NCBI RefSeq assembly: GCF_032399705.1
Contig: NZ_CP135922.1
Location: 1,240,001 to 1,304,000, forward strand
Length of the DNA stretch: 64,000 nucleotides
Origin: Paenibacillus sp. BIC5C1
GTDB lineage: Bacteria; Bacillota; Bacilli; Paenibacillales; Paenibacillaceae
Direction of reading: 5' to 3'
Part shown: positions 33,548 through 38,726 of the stretch, piece by piece
Layout: each line of letters starts with the position of its first letter
Numbering within the stretch: the stretch's first letter is position 1
The notes under the pieces: generated by a model
The model's input: the letters and a program-made list of their open reading frames with translations, nothing else
Database searches by the model: none
Told to the model about the DNA's origin: nothing
Program-made: the position numbers and the translations under genes

Positions 33548-34441
33548 CTATGCAGAATCACTGCCATCTGCATTGGCGAAAGGCTTTTCAATGGGGTGGC
33601 TGCGCACTCCTCCAGAAGTCCGTTCAGGCAGTGTTTCAAGCTCGGTTTCCGCATAGCGTGCCAATACTTTGGCGGCTGTCTCGGACATTCGCTCTCGAAG
33701 CGCAGCATTGTCCGCAATCCGTACCCGTTTGCCCAGAAAACGCATTTTGGAAAGTACGTAATCCATCTCATTCCGCGGAATGGTCAGTTCAATGCGGTAC
33801 GTCTGTTGGGCTTCCACAAATTCCACCTGCTTCTCGAAGCAAGAAAAGGCATACAGAATTCGCGACAACTCCTGATTGAACTCCGGCAGCACTTCGATCG
33901 TTACGGTCGTCTTCCGGTTTTCCGTTAAAATCGCGATTTTGGCAGCATATTGCGAAGCAGTTTCCGGTTGAAGTGGCTGGGCTTCCGTTGTAATGATGCT
34001 GTGCAGCTTGGTGGACATCAGTTTGTTGTGGAGTGGAGCATACCAGAGCACGTACCATTCTTTTTTGACCATGGAATATTCGAGCTTGTAGGGGTATCCA
34101 AACTGATCCTGGCTGATTCGTCCATTGCGGACACGCCCTGTCAAACGAAACCCTTGATGATGCAAAATCATCTGCCGTAATGGCTTGAGCAGCGGATGAA
34201 AGACACTGTTTTCTTCACTTTTGGCTTTTTCGGTCAGGTAATCCTGAAGGTCCAGATCCTGCTCTGCATCCAGCATGTCATGCATTTTGTGCAACGTATT
34301 AGGGTGCAGCGCTTCTGGTGCAGCAGGGTGATTCAGCATCATGCGCAGCCAGGCTCGTTCCTGGGAAGTCCAGGTGAACAGTCCGGTTTCATTCAATCTC
34401 GTCATCATCTGGTAGTTGAACATCTTCTCGAACAGATTCAT
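33548..34441 (-). CDS. WYL-domain regulator (second of a pair)
   Basis: About 297 residues. A helical N-terminal region is followed by a WYL domain (near 95-190: GRISQDQFGYPYKLEYSMVKKEWYVLWYAPLHNKL, where YVLWY replaces the WYL core) and a WCX-like C-terminal part. WYL domains sense nucleic-acid or nucleotide ligands and often control stress or defence genes. The upstream WYL gene overlaps its start, so both are made together. Start: ATG 34441 has AGGAG about 13 bases before it; the longer TTG frame lacks proper spacing. It diverges from the Y RNA/Rsr genes, its most likely targets. Confidence 0.85.
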   Translation of the reverse strand: MNLFEKMFNYQMMTRLNETGLFTWTSQERAWLRMMLNHPAAPEALHPNTLHKMHDMLDAEQDLDLQDYLTEKAKSEENSVFHPLLKPLRQMILHHQGFRLTGRVRNGRISQDQFGYPYKLEYSMVKKEWYVLWYAPLHNKLMSTKLHSIITTEAQPLQPETASQYAAKIAILTENRKTTVTIEVLPEFNQELSRILYAFSCFEKQVEFVEAQQTYRIELTIPRNEMDYVLSKMRFLGKRVRIADNAALRERMSETAAKVLARYAETELETLPERTSGGVRSHPIEKPFANADGSDSA

Positions 34442-35744
34442 AATATTGCGCAATCTCCTTCCATTCCTTAATCATCTCCTGACGCAGCCTCTGTGGAGCA
34501 ATCACCTCACAGCTTGAGCCAAAACTTCGAAGCCATGGCTTAATCTCGGTGATACCGTTGACCTGGATTTCATACAGAAAGGTATGATCTGTTTCGGGCG
34601 TAATCGTTCCCCACTGGCCTTGCAAACGAACCCGATCCAGAATGAAGTTACGCTGGCCATCCTGAGGATGGAAGAATCGTGCTTGAACCGTTACAGTGTT
34701 CCCCGTATCCACGAGCCAGCTGTAGCGGCTGATCTCAGCCCACTGTTGCTTTAATTTGAGCATATATTCTTCTTCAATTGAATCCTGTTCCTCTAGCTGT
34801 GTAATGCCTTCCATTCGGAACTTCACAAATCCTCGGCGTCCCTGAAATCCAATGACATACCAGCGGCCATACTGATGGTCATAGACAACTTCAAGTGGTA
34901 CGATCCGGTTGGATCGTCCGCCTGCTTCCCGTTCAAAGCGTGGGTTTGTATTCTGCGAACTGTAGCTGGACGGTTTTTTGGGTGAATAATACAAAAACTG
35001 CACATGTTTTCGCTGGCGAATCGCACTAAGCAGAGTGTACAGATGTGCTTCATCCAGAATGCGTGAATAATAGTGGTACTTGTATATAAATGGCTCAGTA
35101 GCTTCTTCCTGTGGATAGCTTGTAGCAATGGCTTTTTTGAGACTGTCACGCAATAAATATCCCTGCACGGACGGAACCTGGGTGTTGGCCATAATATCCA
35201 CAAAATCATACAACTCCAGCTGTTCTTCCACGGATAGCCCCGTAAGTACGTCCTGCTGCAACAGGTAACGATAAGGCCTGCCGCCAGGTTCCTTGCGGAT
35301 CACCCCGACTTCTTCCAGATACTTCAGATCTGAGCGAATGGTCTTTTCGTCTGGTAATGCCAGATCTTCCGGAAGATCAGCACAGCAGGCATCCAGTAAT
35401 TCCATAGCGGTTAAAGCCTGATCTTGAAGGGTGTGCAAAAGAACGGAAAGTCGCTGCACTTCAGTCTCTTTCATCGACTTGGCGCGAAAGAGGAAGAGCA
35501 GCATGGGCTCAGCAGATTCCCCATACTGGAAACGAACTAGATCCGCCATTTCTTTGTTTTGTTCCGAGCCTGAGCGTTGGTCCGCGACGGTCTGCATGAT
35601 TTCTTTTAATCTACGCTGGGTTTTATCAAATGTATGTACGGAGATGCCGAGCCGTTCGGCGTACTGTTTACGGTTATACGCACCACTTGTCAGGGACAAC
35701 ATGCGCAGAAATTGAATTTCTTTGTCAAAGCTCTCTTTAGCCAT
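34389..35744 (-). CDS. HTH-WYL transcriptional regulator (first of a pair)
   Basis: A 451-residue regulator. An N-terminal HTH (KQYAERLGISVHTFDKTQRRLKE) is followed by helical and winged segments and a WYL domain near residues 240-330 (HVQFLYYSPKKPSS ... VIPLEVVYDHQYGRWYVIGF; the signature is RWYVIGF). A WCX domain follows. ATG 35744 has AAGGAG with 10-base spacing. It overlaps the second WYL gene by 53 bases. Between it and the divergent Y RNA lies a perfect 15-base inverted repeat, a candidate operator. Confidence 0.9.
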   Translation of the reverse strand: MAKESFDKEIQFLRMLSLTSGAYNRKQYAERLGISVHTFDKTQRRLKEIMQTVADQRSGSEQNKEMADLVRFQYGESAEPMLLFLFRAKSMKETEVQRLSVLLHTLQDQALTAMELLDACCADLPEDLALPDEKTIRSDLKYLEEVGVIRKEPGGRPYRYLLQQDVLTGLSVEEQLELYDFVDIMANTQVPSVQGYLLRDSLKKAIATSYPQEEATEPFIYKYHYYSRILDEAHLYTLLSAIRQRKHVQFLYYSPKKPSSYSSQNTNPRFEREAGGRSNRIVPLEVVYDHQYGRWYVIGFQGRRGFVKFRMEGITQLEEQDSIEEEYMLKLKQQWAEISRYSWLVDTGNTVTVQARFFHPQDGQRNFILDRVRLQGQWGTITPETDHTFLYEIQVNGITEIKPWLRSFGSSCEVIAPQRLRQEMIKEWKEIAQYYESVREDVQLPDDDEIE

Positions 35745-35907
35745 GAATATTCACTCCTTGGTGGCCTGGAGTCAGGCGGATATAGTGGATGACTATGTTG
35801 GCAGAACAATTCTTCGTTATATAGAAACATTGGTGATCTTCCCATTTACTATATCCCTACATTGTATCAGGATGAGTGGCTGGTTTCATTTTAAACTTAC
35901 GGCGGTT

Positions 35908-35981
35908 GAATCAATTTCATAATACCTTTAGCTGCTTCAATCGTTACAAAATGATATTTTTATGAGTTATGAAATTGATTC
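35908..35981. promoter_or_regulatory. Perfect 15-base inverted repeat between the WYL genes and the Y RNA
   Basis: GAATCAATTTCATAA (35908-35922) is the exact reverse complement of TTATGAAATTGATTC (35967-35981), with a 44-base spacer. It sits in the divergent control region and is the best candidate binding site for the WYL regulators. Confidence 0.65.
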
Positions 35982-36069
35982 GTCGCCATACTTTCGCCAT
36001 GTTCGCGTGCAAATGGGTGAGGCATAATAAGGGTGTGAAGCGGGGCAGCAACAAACTCTGCGGATCAAG

Positions 36070-36205
36070 GTTCCGAGGCGCCAGGGAGGGTTACTTCGAT
36101 TGTTAATCGACCAGGTCGTTGGTTCAAATCCAATCGCCGCCGTTCATGGCGGTGTAGCTCAGCGGTAGAGCGGGTATTATACCTTCCCACCTTTTTCCTC
36201 GGAAC
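36070..36205 (+). ncRNA. yrlA: YrlA-type Y RNA with circularly permuted tRNA mimic
   Basis: The ends pair: GTTCCGAGG (36070-36078) with CCTCGGAAC (36197-36205), then, past an asymmetric internal loop, GGGAGGG (36084-36090) with CCTTCCC (36182-36188); this is the expected Ro60-binding stem. Inside lie a hairpin (36096-36110) and a tRNA-like part in permuted order. It has a T-arm with 7-base loop TTCAAAT (36118-36134), the 3' acceptor strand CGCCGCC (36135-36141), a 6-base loop, the 5' acceptor strand GGCGGTG (36148-36154), and a D-arm GCTC-AGCGGTA-GAGC (36157-36171). All seven acceptor pairs form (one G-U). It lies 52 bases before the Rsr gene. A possible -10, CATAAT, is at 36023-36028. Exact 5' and 3' ends are unknown. 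Confidence 0.9.
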
Positions 36206-36256
36206 ATTTTATTATGGAGTATCAGTAAATAGACTCACACCGGGAGGTCATGAGTG

Positions 36257-37750
36257 ATGAGCAGAGCAAAACAATTATTTAATCAACCTCAGCCAACGAT
36301 ACGTAATCATGGGGGCTACGGAGCCTATGAACGGTTGATAGAGGAACAATATATACAGATGTTGATGACCAATACTTTGAACAATACATTTTATGCAGAT
36401 ACCCAGCAGCTGATGGACGATGCGATGGTCAGTCATCAGGAGATGGCTGAGGTCGATGCAGGGTTTATGGCGCGGGCGCTGGTCTATGCTCGTAATGAAG
36501 GCTTGATGCGGTTACAGCCTCTATACGGGCTGGCACTCTTGTCCAAGGTGGACCCGGATCAGTTTGCGAAGGTATTCTCCAAGGTGGTACAGACACCGGC
36601 TGACTTGGCCGATTTTCTGACGATTCTTAGAGGAACGGGGCGAGGACAGGGCGGACGAGCGGTGAAGCGACAGGTGAGTCAATTTTTGAATGGTATTACT
36701 GAATATTGGGCGATCAAATATAACGGGCGCGGACGTGGATACAGTCTGGGCGATATGATCGCTACAGCACACCCCAAGCCGTCAGATATGAAGAAACAAG
36801 CTTTGTTTCGTTATTTGCGAGGACATGAGGTGGATCTTACGGACCTGCCGCAGTTGCAGGCGCTGGAAAAGTTGAAGGCAACCCCAAACCCTGCAAGTCG
36901 GATGCATCTGATCGAAAAAGGCAAACTGCCGTATTCGGTGATCACATCGATCATGCAGCCGACACGTACGGTATGGGAGGCGTTGATGTCCCAGATGCCC
37001 ACCTTTGCATTGTTACGTCATCTGAATGCGATGGATCGGGCGGGAGTGTTTGAAAAATCGAAAAATATCGATTACGTAACGGGCCGTCTAACGGATGCAG
37101 AATCCCTGCGTAAGTCGCGCATTTTACCTTTCCGCTTCGCCAGTGTGTATGAAATGATCGCCAGAGAAGAGCTGCGCTCTGCTTTGCGGGAAGCGGTGGA
37201 GCTATCGATTGGCAACCTGCCATCGCTGCCGGGAAGAACCGCCATATTCCTGGATCGCTCCGGTTCCATGCAAGGGGATTATTTACGGATTGGATCGGTG
37301 CTGGCACTGGCACTTTATAAACAAACACGAGGCAACTCGCTGTTCTGGTTATTCGACCACATAGTTGAGGATGCTCGTCCCAAGATGGATGAAAGCATCC
37401 TTTCCCAAGCTCATCGGATTCGCGCACAAGGTGGAACTGACACGGGACGGCCTGTCCGAGAGCTGCGGGATATTGGAGAGAAAGTGGATCAGATCATTAT
37501 GATCACCGATGAACAGCAGAATGAAGGCAGTCCGTTATATGCTGAGCTTGAACGTTATCGCCGGATGATGAATCCGGACCTGAAAGCATTTATCGTGGAT
37601 ATTGCACCTTATCAGCAGGCAATGGTGCCGCCACGGGATGGCAAAACCTTTTATATCTATGGGTGGAGTGAAACGGTACTGACGTATATTGCTGAGACTG
37701 TAGCGGGATATGATACACTTGCGAGCCGGGTGAGAGAGATAGAGATTTAA
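36257..37750 (+). CDS. rsr: TROVE-domain RNA-binding protein, Ro60 ortholog
   Basis: A 497-residue protein. The N-terminal TROVE HEAT-repeat ring (about 1-330) includes FLTILRGTGRGQGGRAVKRQ. The C-terminal VWA domain (about 335-490) has the MIDAS motif AIFLDRSGSMQGD, with GGTDTG and MITDEQQNEG completing it. Ro60/Rsr binds Y RNA on its outer surface and misfolded RNA ends in its cavity; in Deinococcus it works with PNPase in stress-time RNA decay. The Y RNA is encoded directly upstream, probably on the same transcript. Start: ATG 36257 has GGGAGG with 9-base spacing; GTG 36254 is possible. An RlaP-like gene follows after 25 bases. Confidence 0.95.
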   Translation: MSRAKQLFNQPQPTIRNHGGYGAYERLIEEQYIQMLMTNTLNNTFYADTQQLMDDAMVSHQEMAEVDAGFMARALVYARNEGLMRLQPLYGLALLSKVDPDQFAKVFSKVVQTPADLADFLTILRGTGRGQGGRAVKRQVSQFLNGITEYWAIKYNGRGRGYSLGDMIATAHPKPSDMKKQALFRYLRGHEVDLTDLPQLQALEKLKATPNPASRMHLIEKGKLPYSVITSIMQPTRTVWEALMSQMPTFALLRHLNAMDRAGVFEKSKNIDYVTGRLTDAESLRKSRILPFRFASVYEMIAREELRSALREAVELSIGNLPSLPGRTAIFLDRSGSMQGDYLRIGSVLALALYKQTRGNSLFWLFDHIVEDARPKMDESILSQAHRIRAQGGTDTGRPVRELRDIGEKVDQIIMITDEQQNEGSPLYAELERYRRMMNPDLKAFIVDIAPYQQAMVPPRDGKTFYIYGWSETVLTYIAETVAGYDTLASRVREIEI

Positions 37751-37775
37751 ATTGGAAAATGTGGAGGGCACAGAG

Positions 37776-38582
37776 ATGACTCATGTTCATGAAGAAATGA
37801 GAGATACGATTAGACAGCAGCTGAAGCAGATTGAACAGGAGGAGCAGGTGCGGATCATCTATGCCTGTGAATCGGGCAGCCGGGCATGGGGATTTCCTTC
37901 ACAGGACAGCGATTATGATGTTCGTTTTCTGTATGTGAGACCGCTGGAATGGTACTTGTCCATTGAGGATAAAAGGGATGTTATCGAACGCCCGATCAGT
38001 GATCAGCTTGATATAAATGGTTGGGATTTACGCAAAGCCTTGAAGCTGTTTCGCAAGTCGAATCCGCCGCTGCTGGAGTGGCTGCAATCCCCGATTCAGT
38101 ATGACGAACCGTACAGCGTGGCAGAGCATATTCGTACACTATCGCCTTTGACCTTCTCGCCAAAGTCCTGTATGTACCATTATCTGAATATGGCGAAGGG
38201 AAACTTCAGGGATTATCTGCAGGGTGAACAGGTGAAGATCAAAAAGTATTTCTATGTGCTGCGCCCACTGCTCGCCTGTGGATGGATCGAACGTTATGAT
38301 GCGATGCCACCGATGGCATTTGAAGAGCTGGTGCAAGAGCTTGTTCCTCAGAGCGCGCCGCTCTATACGGAAATCCATGAACTGCTGCGCCGGAAAAAGG
38401 CCGGCGAGGAACTCGACCTGGAACCGCAGCTACCCGCCATACAGGCTTTTTTGGCGGAGAAGATTGCGTATTTTGAACAATTGGCCGCCCAGCTGGAGAA
38501 TGAACAGATTATTCAATATGAAGAACTGGACCGTATCTTCCGTTTTGCACTGCAAGAGGTGTGGGCGGCAACCTTCGATTAA
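37776..38582 (+). CDS. Pol-beta-superfamily nucleotidyltransferase (RlaP/YcgL-like)
   Basis: A 268-residue protein. IYACESGSRAWGFPSQDSDYDVRFLYV contains the nucleotidyltransferase GS motif and the metal-binding D-x-D (DYDVRF). SPIQYDE, SPKSCMYHYLNMAKGNFRDYL and KKYFYVLRPLLACGWI match the YcgL/RlaP family. That family has been predicted by comparative genomics to act in RNA repair beside RNA ligases and TROVE proteins. Start: ATG 37776 has GGAGGG with 7-base spacing. Its position 25 bases after rsr supports an RNA-processing role, for example 3'-end nucleotide addition; this is inference. Confidence 0.88.
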   Translation: MTHVHEEMRDTIRQQLKQIEQEEQVRIIYACESGSRAWGFPSQDSDYDVRFLYVRPLEWYLSIEDKRDVIERPISDQLDINGWDLRKALKLFRKSNPPLLEWLQSPIQYDEPYSVAEHIRTLSPLTFSPKSCMYHYLNMAKGNFRDYLQGEQVKIKKYFYVLRPLLACGWIERYDAMPPMAFEELVQELVPQSAPLYTEIHELLRRKKAGEELDLEPQLPAIQAFLAEKIAYFEQLAAQLENEQIIQYEELDRIFRFALQEVWAATFD

Positions 38583-38644
38583 AGTATAAGGTCCTGCGTA
38601 TTTGCACATCAAAAGTCTGAACCGGTGGGCCCACGTTTGTAACA

Positions 38645-38673
38645 GGATCGGAGAAGTGTGCGACTTCTGATCC
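38645..38673 (+). other. Stable hairpin downstream of the nucleotidyltransferase gene
   Basis: GGATC-GG-AGAAGT-GTGCG-ACTTCT-GATCC forms 11 pairs with a 2-base bulge and 5-base loop. It lacks a T-run and precedes a separate terminator by 20 bases, so it may be part of a processed 3' region or a small RNA. Confidence 0.4.
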
Positions 38674-38694
38674 CTTTGGAGTCAAGGTAATAGT

Positions 38695-38726
38695 ACAGGT
38701 TTGGTATATCCAAGCCTGTTTTTGTT
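38695..38726 (+). terminator. Rho-independent terminator of the rsr locus
   Basis: ACAGGTTTGG pairs with CCAAGCCTGT (one G-T), 5-base loop, followed by TTTTT. Confidence 0.85.

Follow-up and report, generated by a model that had tools for sequence, protein, structure and literature searches.

What a Ro60 protein and its Y RNA do in bacteria is largely open, and a locus of Paenibacillus sp. BIC5C1 raises this question in a particular form, namely which task such a pair serves when it is joined to two WYL regulators and an RlaP nucleotidyltransferase, with no intact RNA ligase gene beside them. The window analysed here is a stretch of 64,000 nucleotides (C1:1240001-1304000) of the single-contig 7.08-Mb genome of this strain, and in the locus two overlapping genes, WYL1 and WYL2, are divergent from the Y RNA, rsr (the Ro60 orthologue) and rlaP (Table 1). 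An initial annotation had named these parts, all of which were found where it had placed them by profile and Rfam matches. Its interpretation, that the WYL proteins sense damaged RNA and induce Y RNA, Rsr and the transferase, was supported in part and needed correction on the deletion history, the wiring of the regulon and the anticodon arm of the Y RNA. With a probability of roughly 0.7, we read the locus as one branch, that of Rsr, of a regulon of Paenibacillaceae and their neighbours that is inducible, serves RNA repair and quality control and is aimed at tRNAs cut in the anticodon.

Gene neighbourhood, operator and regulon

To compare relatives, one genome per species was scanned for Rsr and the best 80 of 105 loci were kept with at most 8 kb on each side; family-wide counts refer to 197 genomes. 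The 80 loci come from Paenibacillus, Cohnella, Brevibacillus, Saccharibacillus and Gorillibacterium, with one from Thermoanaerobacterium (L104), Paenibacillus taichungensis NC1 (L034) being the nearest named relative of the window among those fetched. This survey of the surroundings of TROVE and RlaP genes, which had been suggested as a check, found WYL1 in 66 loci, WYL2 in 65 and both in 65, RlaP in 53, Hen1 in 26, Pnkp in 25, RtcB in 37 and KptA in 14, with Pnkp or RtcB in 54. Seven of the 80 loci had no scored partner family beside Rsr; absences may reflect short contigs (L095, L098) or distance, and in G182 WYL1 lies ~240 kb away from Rsr. A protein of 534 amino acids with weak HEAT similarity (0.0017) was present in 16 loci, often between RlaP and RtcB (for example L064:10533-12137).

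The frequency of ligases bears on an alternative that we consider unlikely, in which the locus serves RNA degradation: Rsr and the Y RNA would tether PNPase as in Deinococcus, RlaP would tail RNAs and repair would be dispensable. A precedent for this exists in RYPER, which the accessible part of PMC8394870 describes as a degradation complex of Rsr, Y RNA and PNPase, but a ligase within the fetched stretch at 54 of 80 loci speaks against it.

Upstream of WYL1, ATACTTTCGCCATGTTC was found with at most three mismatches in 87 of 96 loci, compared with 0/96 for shuffled sequence and 4/96 on the reverse strand. Among 87 sites within two mismatches of ATACTTNYGCCMTGTTC, 81 had a -10-like NANNAT exactly 18 nt on, the next commonest offset being 8 nt (31/87). 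A plus-strand site (at most two mismatches to ATACTTNYGCCMTGTTC) lies no more than 3.5 kb upstream of Rsr in 77 of the 80 loci (missing in L049, L102 and L104), including 13 of the 14 without WYL1 in the fetched stretch, which suggests that the regulator can act in trans. These counts establish the presence of the operator, its spacing and its linkage to WYL genes, and together with gene order they bear out the earlier claim that a WYL pair is tied to Rsr and RNA-repair loci. The motif covers the -35 region, which points to activation rather than occlusion; such a position is typical of PafBC/DriD-like activators. From the sequences we infer that the WYL pair binds this operator and activates transcription. 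Six Saccharibacillus loci (L102, L103, L105, L107, L110, L112) carry an extra, oppositely oriented site with one or two mismatches. A perfect 15-nt inverted repeat adjoining the window's operator (35908-35981, 44 nt between arms) was rejected as an operator, because among 18 relatives both arms were seen by eye only in L035, and there imperfectly.

Across the family, the operator followed by its -10, at no more than one mismatch, occurs in 130 of the 131 genomes with WYL1 as against 5 of the 66 without, and the reversed control pattern gave three matches in all 197. Rsr is present in 54 genomes. In the genome of the window the exact core occurs once, at the locus, and sites with two mismatches are at background level (19 against 17 in the control). 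One further operator with a -10, at one mismatch, was found at C1:6973228-6973268. This only other such site precedes a 750-residue gene related to NF041916 (L182:3926-6178, near C1:6.97 Mb), relatives of which follow operators in at least six more fetched sites.

To see what lies beyond the locus, 20 remote operator sites, near neither WYL1 nor Rsr, were chosen by hand among the matches listed. All 20 stand before one of four families: a protein of ~700 amino acids related to NCBIfam NF041916, under its cut-off (7 sites), one of ~310 amino acids (8), SPFH (3) and RtcB (2). No Pfam family was found over the cut-off for the ~700-, ~310- or 534-residue proteins. The sites before rtcB again count against a role in degradation. 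In addition, 20 WYL1 loci lacking Rsr were chosen by hand from 78 such genomes, and these contain WYL2 (20), RlaP (15), SPFH (12), RtcB (7), Pnkp (5, one a fragment), the HEAT-like protein (3) and KptA (2). SPFH was absent from all 80 Rsr stretches and so looks like an alternative to Rsr. The wiring by the WYL proteins is, on this evidence, apparently that of a regulon and not the control of a single locus that had been proposed, and the operator, in outlining the whole regulon, offers a route to unrecognised RNA-repair genes.

Further members of this regulon appear to be tRNA genes, which in loci of the Cohnella type are diverged. The searches for tRNAs covered 59 loci (56 of them among the 80 Rsr loci), then 27 and then 20. 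Arrays of 2-8 tRNA genes in the same direction lie upstream of Y RNA-rsr, between it and the WYL promoter region, in nine of the 59 loci, seven in Cohnella and two in Paenibacillus (L052, L053, L054, L055, L058, L063, L071, L089, L096), and in 8/8 checked (L055 being outside the check) one operator precedes the array while another lies between it and Y RNA-rsr. The tRNAs encoded are His(GUG), Gln(UUG), Pro(UGG), Glu(UUC), Asn(GUU), Asp(GUC), Trp(CCA), Ile(GAU) and one Val. Anticodon nucleases are known to attack several of these isoacceptors, which points to the replacement of cut tRNAs. In the array of G041, the His, Glu and Ile genes have no copies elsewhere in the genome at E ≤0.01, and the Pro gene alone has full-length copies, two at 82% and one at 71%. 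Three Glu genes and one His gene are present at L160, a WYL locus without Rsr, and Met and Asn genes at L144, outside the family. Lone tRNA-Trp calls by ARAGORN in L057 and L061 overlap Y-type RNAs and were not counted as arrays.

The two regulators themselves are recognisable to differing degrees. WYL1 has Pfam matches to WYL and WCX, both over the cut-off, and WYL2 matches the PADLOC WYL profile at 9.5e-11; the open reading frames as listed share 65 nt. Structures were predicted from alignments of 40 of 49 WYL2 rows and 40 of 56 WYL1 rows, each with the window's sequence added. DriD and PafBC are the closest solved folds to the two models, DriD being that of WYL1; solved WYL proteins were reached by sequence alone at insignificant scores only. 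The models resemble these proteins in their WYL and WCX folds, for which WYL1 also has its Pfam domains and WYL2 the PADLOC profile only, and like PafBC the locus brings two WYL proteins together and, as with PafBC and DriD, its operator sits over the -35 region. It differs from both in having its own operator and regulon, and in that WYL2 is without a helix-turn-helix by Pfam.

Both DriD and PafBC bind single-stranded DNA. It is therefore possible, at somewhat less than even odds in our estimate, that the WYL pair senses single-stranded DNA, that induction follows DNA damage only and that RNA repair is a downstream benefit, an account that differs from the RNA-repair reading in its signal and not in its enzymes. 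Besides the folds, the rsr operon of Salmonella speaks for it, which, as far as the consulted portion of PMC7790460 goes, is induced by mitomycin C in a manner needing RecA and LexA cleavage, with tRNA cleavage as a consequence of the treatment. Against it, no recognisable DNA-repair gene follows the 20 hand-picked remote operators among the matches listed, with the caveat that two of the four families there are without an assigned function.

Structure and distribution of the Y RNA

The only Rfam match with E ≤1 in the 20 kb scanned (25-45 kb of the window) is YrlA (RF02553) at 36072-36206 on the plus strand. At 37.3 bits (E 4.5e-5) it falls under the gathering score of 69, and the RNA is thus called YrlA-type and is not filed as RF02553. 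A covariance model was built from the window's RNA and 34 of 35 non-redundant matches, L057 being omitted as aberrant; this model, in which it is included, scores the window's RNA at 129.3 bits. The alignment of 35 sequences supports a two-part Ro stem and a complete tRNA (acceptor, D, T and anticodon arms) in circularly permuted form: the entry of the Ro stem interrupts the 5' side of the anticodon stem, and a loop closes the acceptor.

Of the 1399 cells in the 40 pairs of this structure, 97.2% are paired. Changes on both sides occur in 23 pairs and 158 cells, as against 14.2 pairs and 41.8 cells in shuffles, none of 500 shuffles reaching the real value in pairs or cells, and versions of the structure slid along the alignment reached at most 13 pairs and 40 cells. 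The structure was drawn on the same alignment that scored it, so the test favours it. RNAalifold alone recovers the Ro stems (7/9 upper pairs), the T, acceptor and D stems and, with one pair added, the anticodon hairpin. Covariation thus supports a Y RNA in which a permuted tRNA retains all of its arms and a Ro-binding arm is set into its anticodon stem.

The anticodon loop has seven bases in 77 of the 80 best matches (71 distinct) to the model, which was itself built from 35 sequences of the same kind. Within these 77 loops, U33 is found in 76, a purine at 37 in all 77, U36 in 71 and UAA at 36-38 in 70, and the anticodons are GUU (25), UUU (22), UCU (10), CUU (9) and others (11). U36-A37-A38 is a signature of t6A tRNAs. 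The Ro stem and the permuted T, acceptor and D arms are held in common with YrlA, whereas the anticodon hairpin falls in a 16-nt insert relative to the Rfam consensus, a feature that the initial annotation had missed. The part of PMC8394870 at hand likens YrlA to the D, T and acceptor arms and makes no mention there of an anticodon arm. The Y RNA of the window imitates the very part of a tRNA that anticodon nucleases cut, and such an arm is not obviously needed by a tether for PNPase, a further point against degradation.

The Y RNA model (E ≤1e-12) finds matches in 48 of the 197 genomes, all 48 within the 54 that have an Rsr match; the six others are G021, G098, G130 and G193, with partial or weak Rsr, as well as G155 and G179. 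At E ≤1 the model found nothing in seven syntenic loci that have lost Rsr and keep the WYL pair, RlaP, Hen1 and Pnkp, so that Y RNA and Rsr seem to come and go together. In six TROVE genomes from other Bacillota families, matches of 82-103 bits adjoin TROVE in L142, L146, L147 and L149, and only weaker ones were obtained in L141 and L144; by eye, the anticodon arm is clean in L149, has one stem mismatch in L142 and has longer loops in L146 and L147. Many loci have one or two extra, shorter Y-type RNAs, and the window carries one Y RNA.

The genome of the window gave 39 further matches to the model at E ≤1, many of them partial (model positions 30-106), and tight clusters of such partial matches are read as probable tRNA arrays. 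Weak full-length matches of at most 22 bits, for example at C1:1554820 and C1:4999863, could be short Y-type RNAs. In these clusters the model aligns to what look like boundaries between adjacent tRNA genes, a hint at how a permuted tRNA domain could have come about.

Table 1. Features of the locus, with positions counted from the first nucleotide of the window.
Feature	Position	Strand	Basis
WYL2, second WYL-WCX regulator	33548..34453	-	PADLOC WYL profile, model fold
WYL1, WYL and WCX, winged-helix-like region in model	34389..35744	-	Pfam, model fold
WYL operator, core ATACTTTCGCCATGTTC at 35988-36004, over -35 region	35982..36005	+	Motif conservation
-10-like element CATAAT, 18 nt past operator core	36023..36028	+	Sequence
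Y RNA, YrlA type: Ro-binding stem and circularly permuted tRNA domain	36068..36209	+	Covariance model
Y RNA anticodon arm, 7-nt loop UUGUUAA at 36100-36106	36097..36109	+	Alignment
Y RNA T-arm	36118..36134	+	Alignment
Y RNA acceptor-like stem, 7 bp, closed by loop	36135..36154	+	Alignment
Y RNA D-arm	36157..36171	+	Alignment
Rsr, TROVE and vWA with MIDAS	36254..37750	+	Pfam, family profile
RlaP nucleotidyltransferase, PF10127	37752..38582	+	Pfam; last codons from deletion junction (by eye)
pnkp remnant, inner piece, hen1-pnkp deletion scar	38569..38611	+	Match to L035 pnkp
pnkp remnant, last codons and stop	38614..38642	+	Match to L035 pnkp
Likely terminator hairpin and T-run	38694..38726	+	By eye

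Ligase genes and the history of the site

Rsr matches TROVE (PF05731) at 4e-16 and 59.7 bits against a cut-off of 23, and its family profile matches the Rsr of D. radiodurans (2nvo) at 3.1e-32; the vWA_Ro60 profile is just under its cut-off (2.3e-5; 24.8 against 27.7). Its MIDAS residues D334, S336, S338, T395 and D419 are invariant in 22 sequences, which agrees with the earlier description of a Ro60 orthologue with an intact MIDAS motif, and no second TROVE gene exists in the genome. RlaP matches PF10127 over profile positions 1-248 of 249 (1.6e-101, 339.7 bits) and is the only one over the cut-off in this genome; among solved structures no credible relative was found, with one chance-like match (0.023). 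A second, weak RlaP-like stretch in L003 (C1:5393610-5393777; 21.2 bits, under the cut-off) lies ~250 nt from an operator-like site at C1:5394031, which belongs to the two-mismatch class that is at background level.

It had been noted that no RNA ligase lies near these genes, and this holds for intact genes; what had been overlooked are remnants of one. The 43 and 29 nt after rlaP match the pnkp of L035 at 2428-2470 and 2651-2679, the second piece including the stop codon. Two nearly identical pieces are present in L034, L036, L129 and L132, for which one deletion is the simplest account. L038 has a single weak and different match (73% over 52 nt, E 0.001), and the search for remnants found none in L037 and L131. 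A Pnkp search of the window's genome (G000) returned 0 matches and no Hen1 was found at the locus, but genes of RtcB type are present elsewhere, at C1:1816873-1818090 and, diverged, at C1:5511509-5512354; among the sites listed, no operator within two mismatches was found near either.

Within the genus of the window the site keeps its flanking genes, as far as the fetched stretches extend to them, and occurs in three states of gene content. The full state, with the WYL pair, Y RNA, Rsr, RlaP, Hen1 and Pnkp, is seen in L035 (repeated by L130), L039 and L043, the second state is that of the seven Rsr-less loci mentioned above (L122-L128), and the third, without Hen1 and Pnkp, comprises the window, L034, L036, L129, L132, L037, L038 and L131. 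In G107 (L150) Rsr, Hen1 and Pnkp are all gone while the WYL pair and RlaP stay. The WYL pair and RlaP are thus the constant part of the site, at which natural strains have lost either Rsr with the Y RNA or the ligases. Judged from its scar, the locus of the window is a deletion derivative, in which the ligase genes were lost and the rest was kept.

Ratios of nonsynonymous to synonymous substitution (dN/dS) for pairs of the window, L129 and L132 were 0.064-0.074 for Rsr, 0.049-0.118 for RlaP, 0.019-0.032 for WYL1 and 0.146-0.188 for WYL2. For comparison, a pair with Hen1-Pnkp and a pair lacking it gave 0.054-0.076, 0.045-0.084, 0.044-0.095 and 0.108-0.129, respectively. All four genes are under purifying selection in these three ligase-less genomes; values involving the rsr of L036 are void, since it has an in-frame stop. 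That stop, along with the pnkp remnants common to the window and four relatives, would suit a decaying relic, in which the genes left after the deletion of hen1-pnkp are heading to loss. We regard this as very unlikely, given dN/dS of 0.02-0.19 for all four genes and a window operator with an exact core and its -10 at 18 nt. Selection on RlaP and Rsr after the loss of the ligase is also what the degradation account would expect.

These results bear on the suggestion that the transferase may be the catalytic arm. RlaP is kept under purifying selection in three genomes with no linked ligase and may act without one here, which favours the suggestion; however, the absence of a ligase is a scarred deletion, Pnkp or RtcB lies within the fetched stretch in 54 of the 80 relatives (42 of the 53 RlaP loci, with none intact at the window's locus) and RtcB is encoded elsewhere in the genome. 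It is therefore one option only.

Proposed mechanism and known systems

In the RNA-repair reading, WYL1 and WYL2, whose genes overlap, probably pair up as a PafBC-like heterodimer, which would sense a nucleic-acid product of damage and activate promoters with the 17-bp operator 18 nt upstream of the -10. The induced transcript would consist of the Y RNA followed by Rsr and RlaP, the Y RNA being processed from the rsr leader; a scan of 35700-36300 found no intrinsic terminator between Y RNA and rsr. Bound to Rsr, the Y RNA may show a tRNA shape to tRNA-acting enzymes. RlaP, as predicted for its family, would restore nucleotides at broken tRNA ends before ligation, and in relatives the Hen1-Pnkp or RtcB of the same locus would seal these ends. 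In the clade of the window, with hen1-pnkp deleted, sealing may be done by the RtcB encoded elsewhere, or the module may sort or tail RNA without sealing.

A number of observations weigh against this reading. PafBC, in what is available of PMC11804915, unites two WYL proteins in a heterodimer and is activated by single-stranded DNA and not by single-stranded RNA, so that DNA damage would be the signal. Confidence in the models of the WYL pair is modest (pLDDT 74.6 and 65.3), and the Pfam scan found zero domains in WYL2, a DNA-binding domain included. The Fisher tests of co-occurrence ignore phylogeny. In the Y RNA, RNAalifold did not recover the closing two-pair helix of the anticodon stem (G-C 19 and A-U 13 in one pair, C-G 31, U-A 2 and A-U 1 in the other, n=35), and an extra base turns one of its columns into a non-pair in the window. 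RlaP, present in 15 of the 20 loci without Rsr, is not a specific partner of Rsr, and the stop in the rsr of L036, a ligase-less relative, at residue 65, suggests that some members of the clade may be losing the module.

The closest described system is the rsr-yrlBA-rtcBA operon of Salmonella, which the accessible text of PMC7790460 gives as controlled by RtcR. It likewise joins Rsr, a YrlA-type RNA and RNA repair in one inducible locus, but in the window the WYL pair takes the place of RtcR and a sigma-70-like -10 that of sigma-54; RlaP and an anticodon-armed Y RNA are present, and neither rtcA nor rtcB is at the locus. Its open reading frames are the WYL pair, rsr and rlaP, which sets it apart from an RtcR-controlled Rtc operon, and the wiring is distinct, as had been anticipated. 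The Pnkp/Hen1 repair system is found at the same site, directly after rlaP, in L035, L039 and L043, and differs in the window by its deletion, with the scar remaining. RlaP and TROVE, both present in the locus, are among the RNA-repair parts that the seen portion of PMC7824862 credits to Burroughs and Aravind (2016). No account of a WYL pair over Rsr, of the operator, of an anticodon-armed Y RNA or of tRNA arrays at such a locus was found in the literature searched, though parts may be in Burroughs and Aravind 2016, the Chen 2014 survey of Y RNAs or the 2020 review of bacterial Ro60. The components are of known kinds; the regulator, the operator, the anticodon-armed Y RNA and the spare tRNA arrays look new within that literature, and the link from Ro60 and Y RNA to tRNA damage can be tested in Paenibacillus strains.

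A wider and more speculative proposal, which we hold to be rather doubtful, is that the WYL pair runs a damage-inducible tRNA-rescue regulon of three layers. These would be RNAs that mimic an entire tRNA, its anticodon loop included, and serve as baits or docks (Y RNA-Rsr and an RNA linked to SPFH), enzymes that restore and seal ends (RlaP, Hen1-Pnkp, RtcB and KptA), and inducible arrays of the Cohnella type, whose diverged spare tRNAs (His, Gln, Glu, Asn, Asp, Pro, Trp, Ile) would replace cut ones; the anticodon-armed Y RNA might divert or report anticodon nucleases.

In nine of the ten SPFH loci inspected by eye, a T-arm-like stretch lies at most 700 nt upstream of SPFH. It is followed, again by eye, by a hairpin such as CTCGACTTTTAATCGAG in L152, L153, L154, L158, L165, L168 and L169. 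With its T-arm, acceptor-like stem and anticodon-like hairpin, this element is a candidate for a second tRNA-like RNA, linked to SPFH; the RNA-repair modules of Burroughs and Aravind 2016 are said to include SPFH with a tRNA-like RNA.

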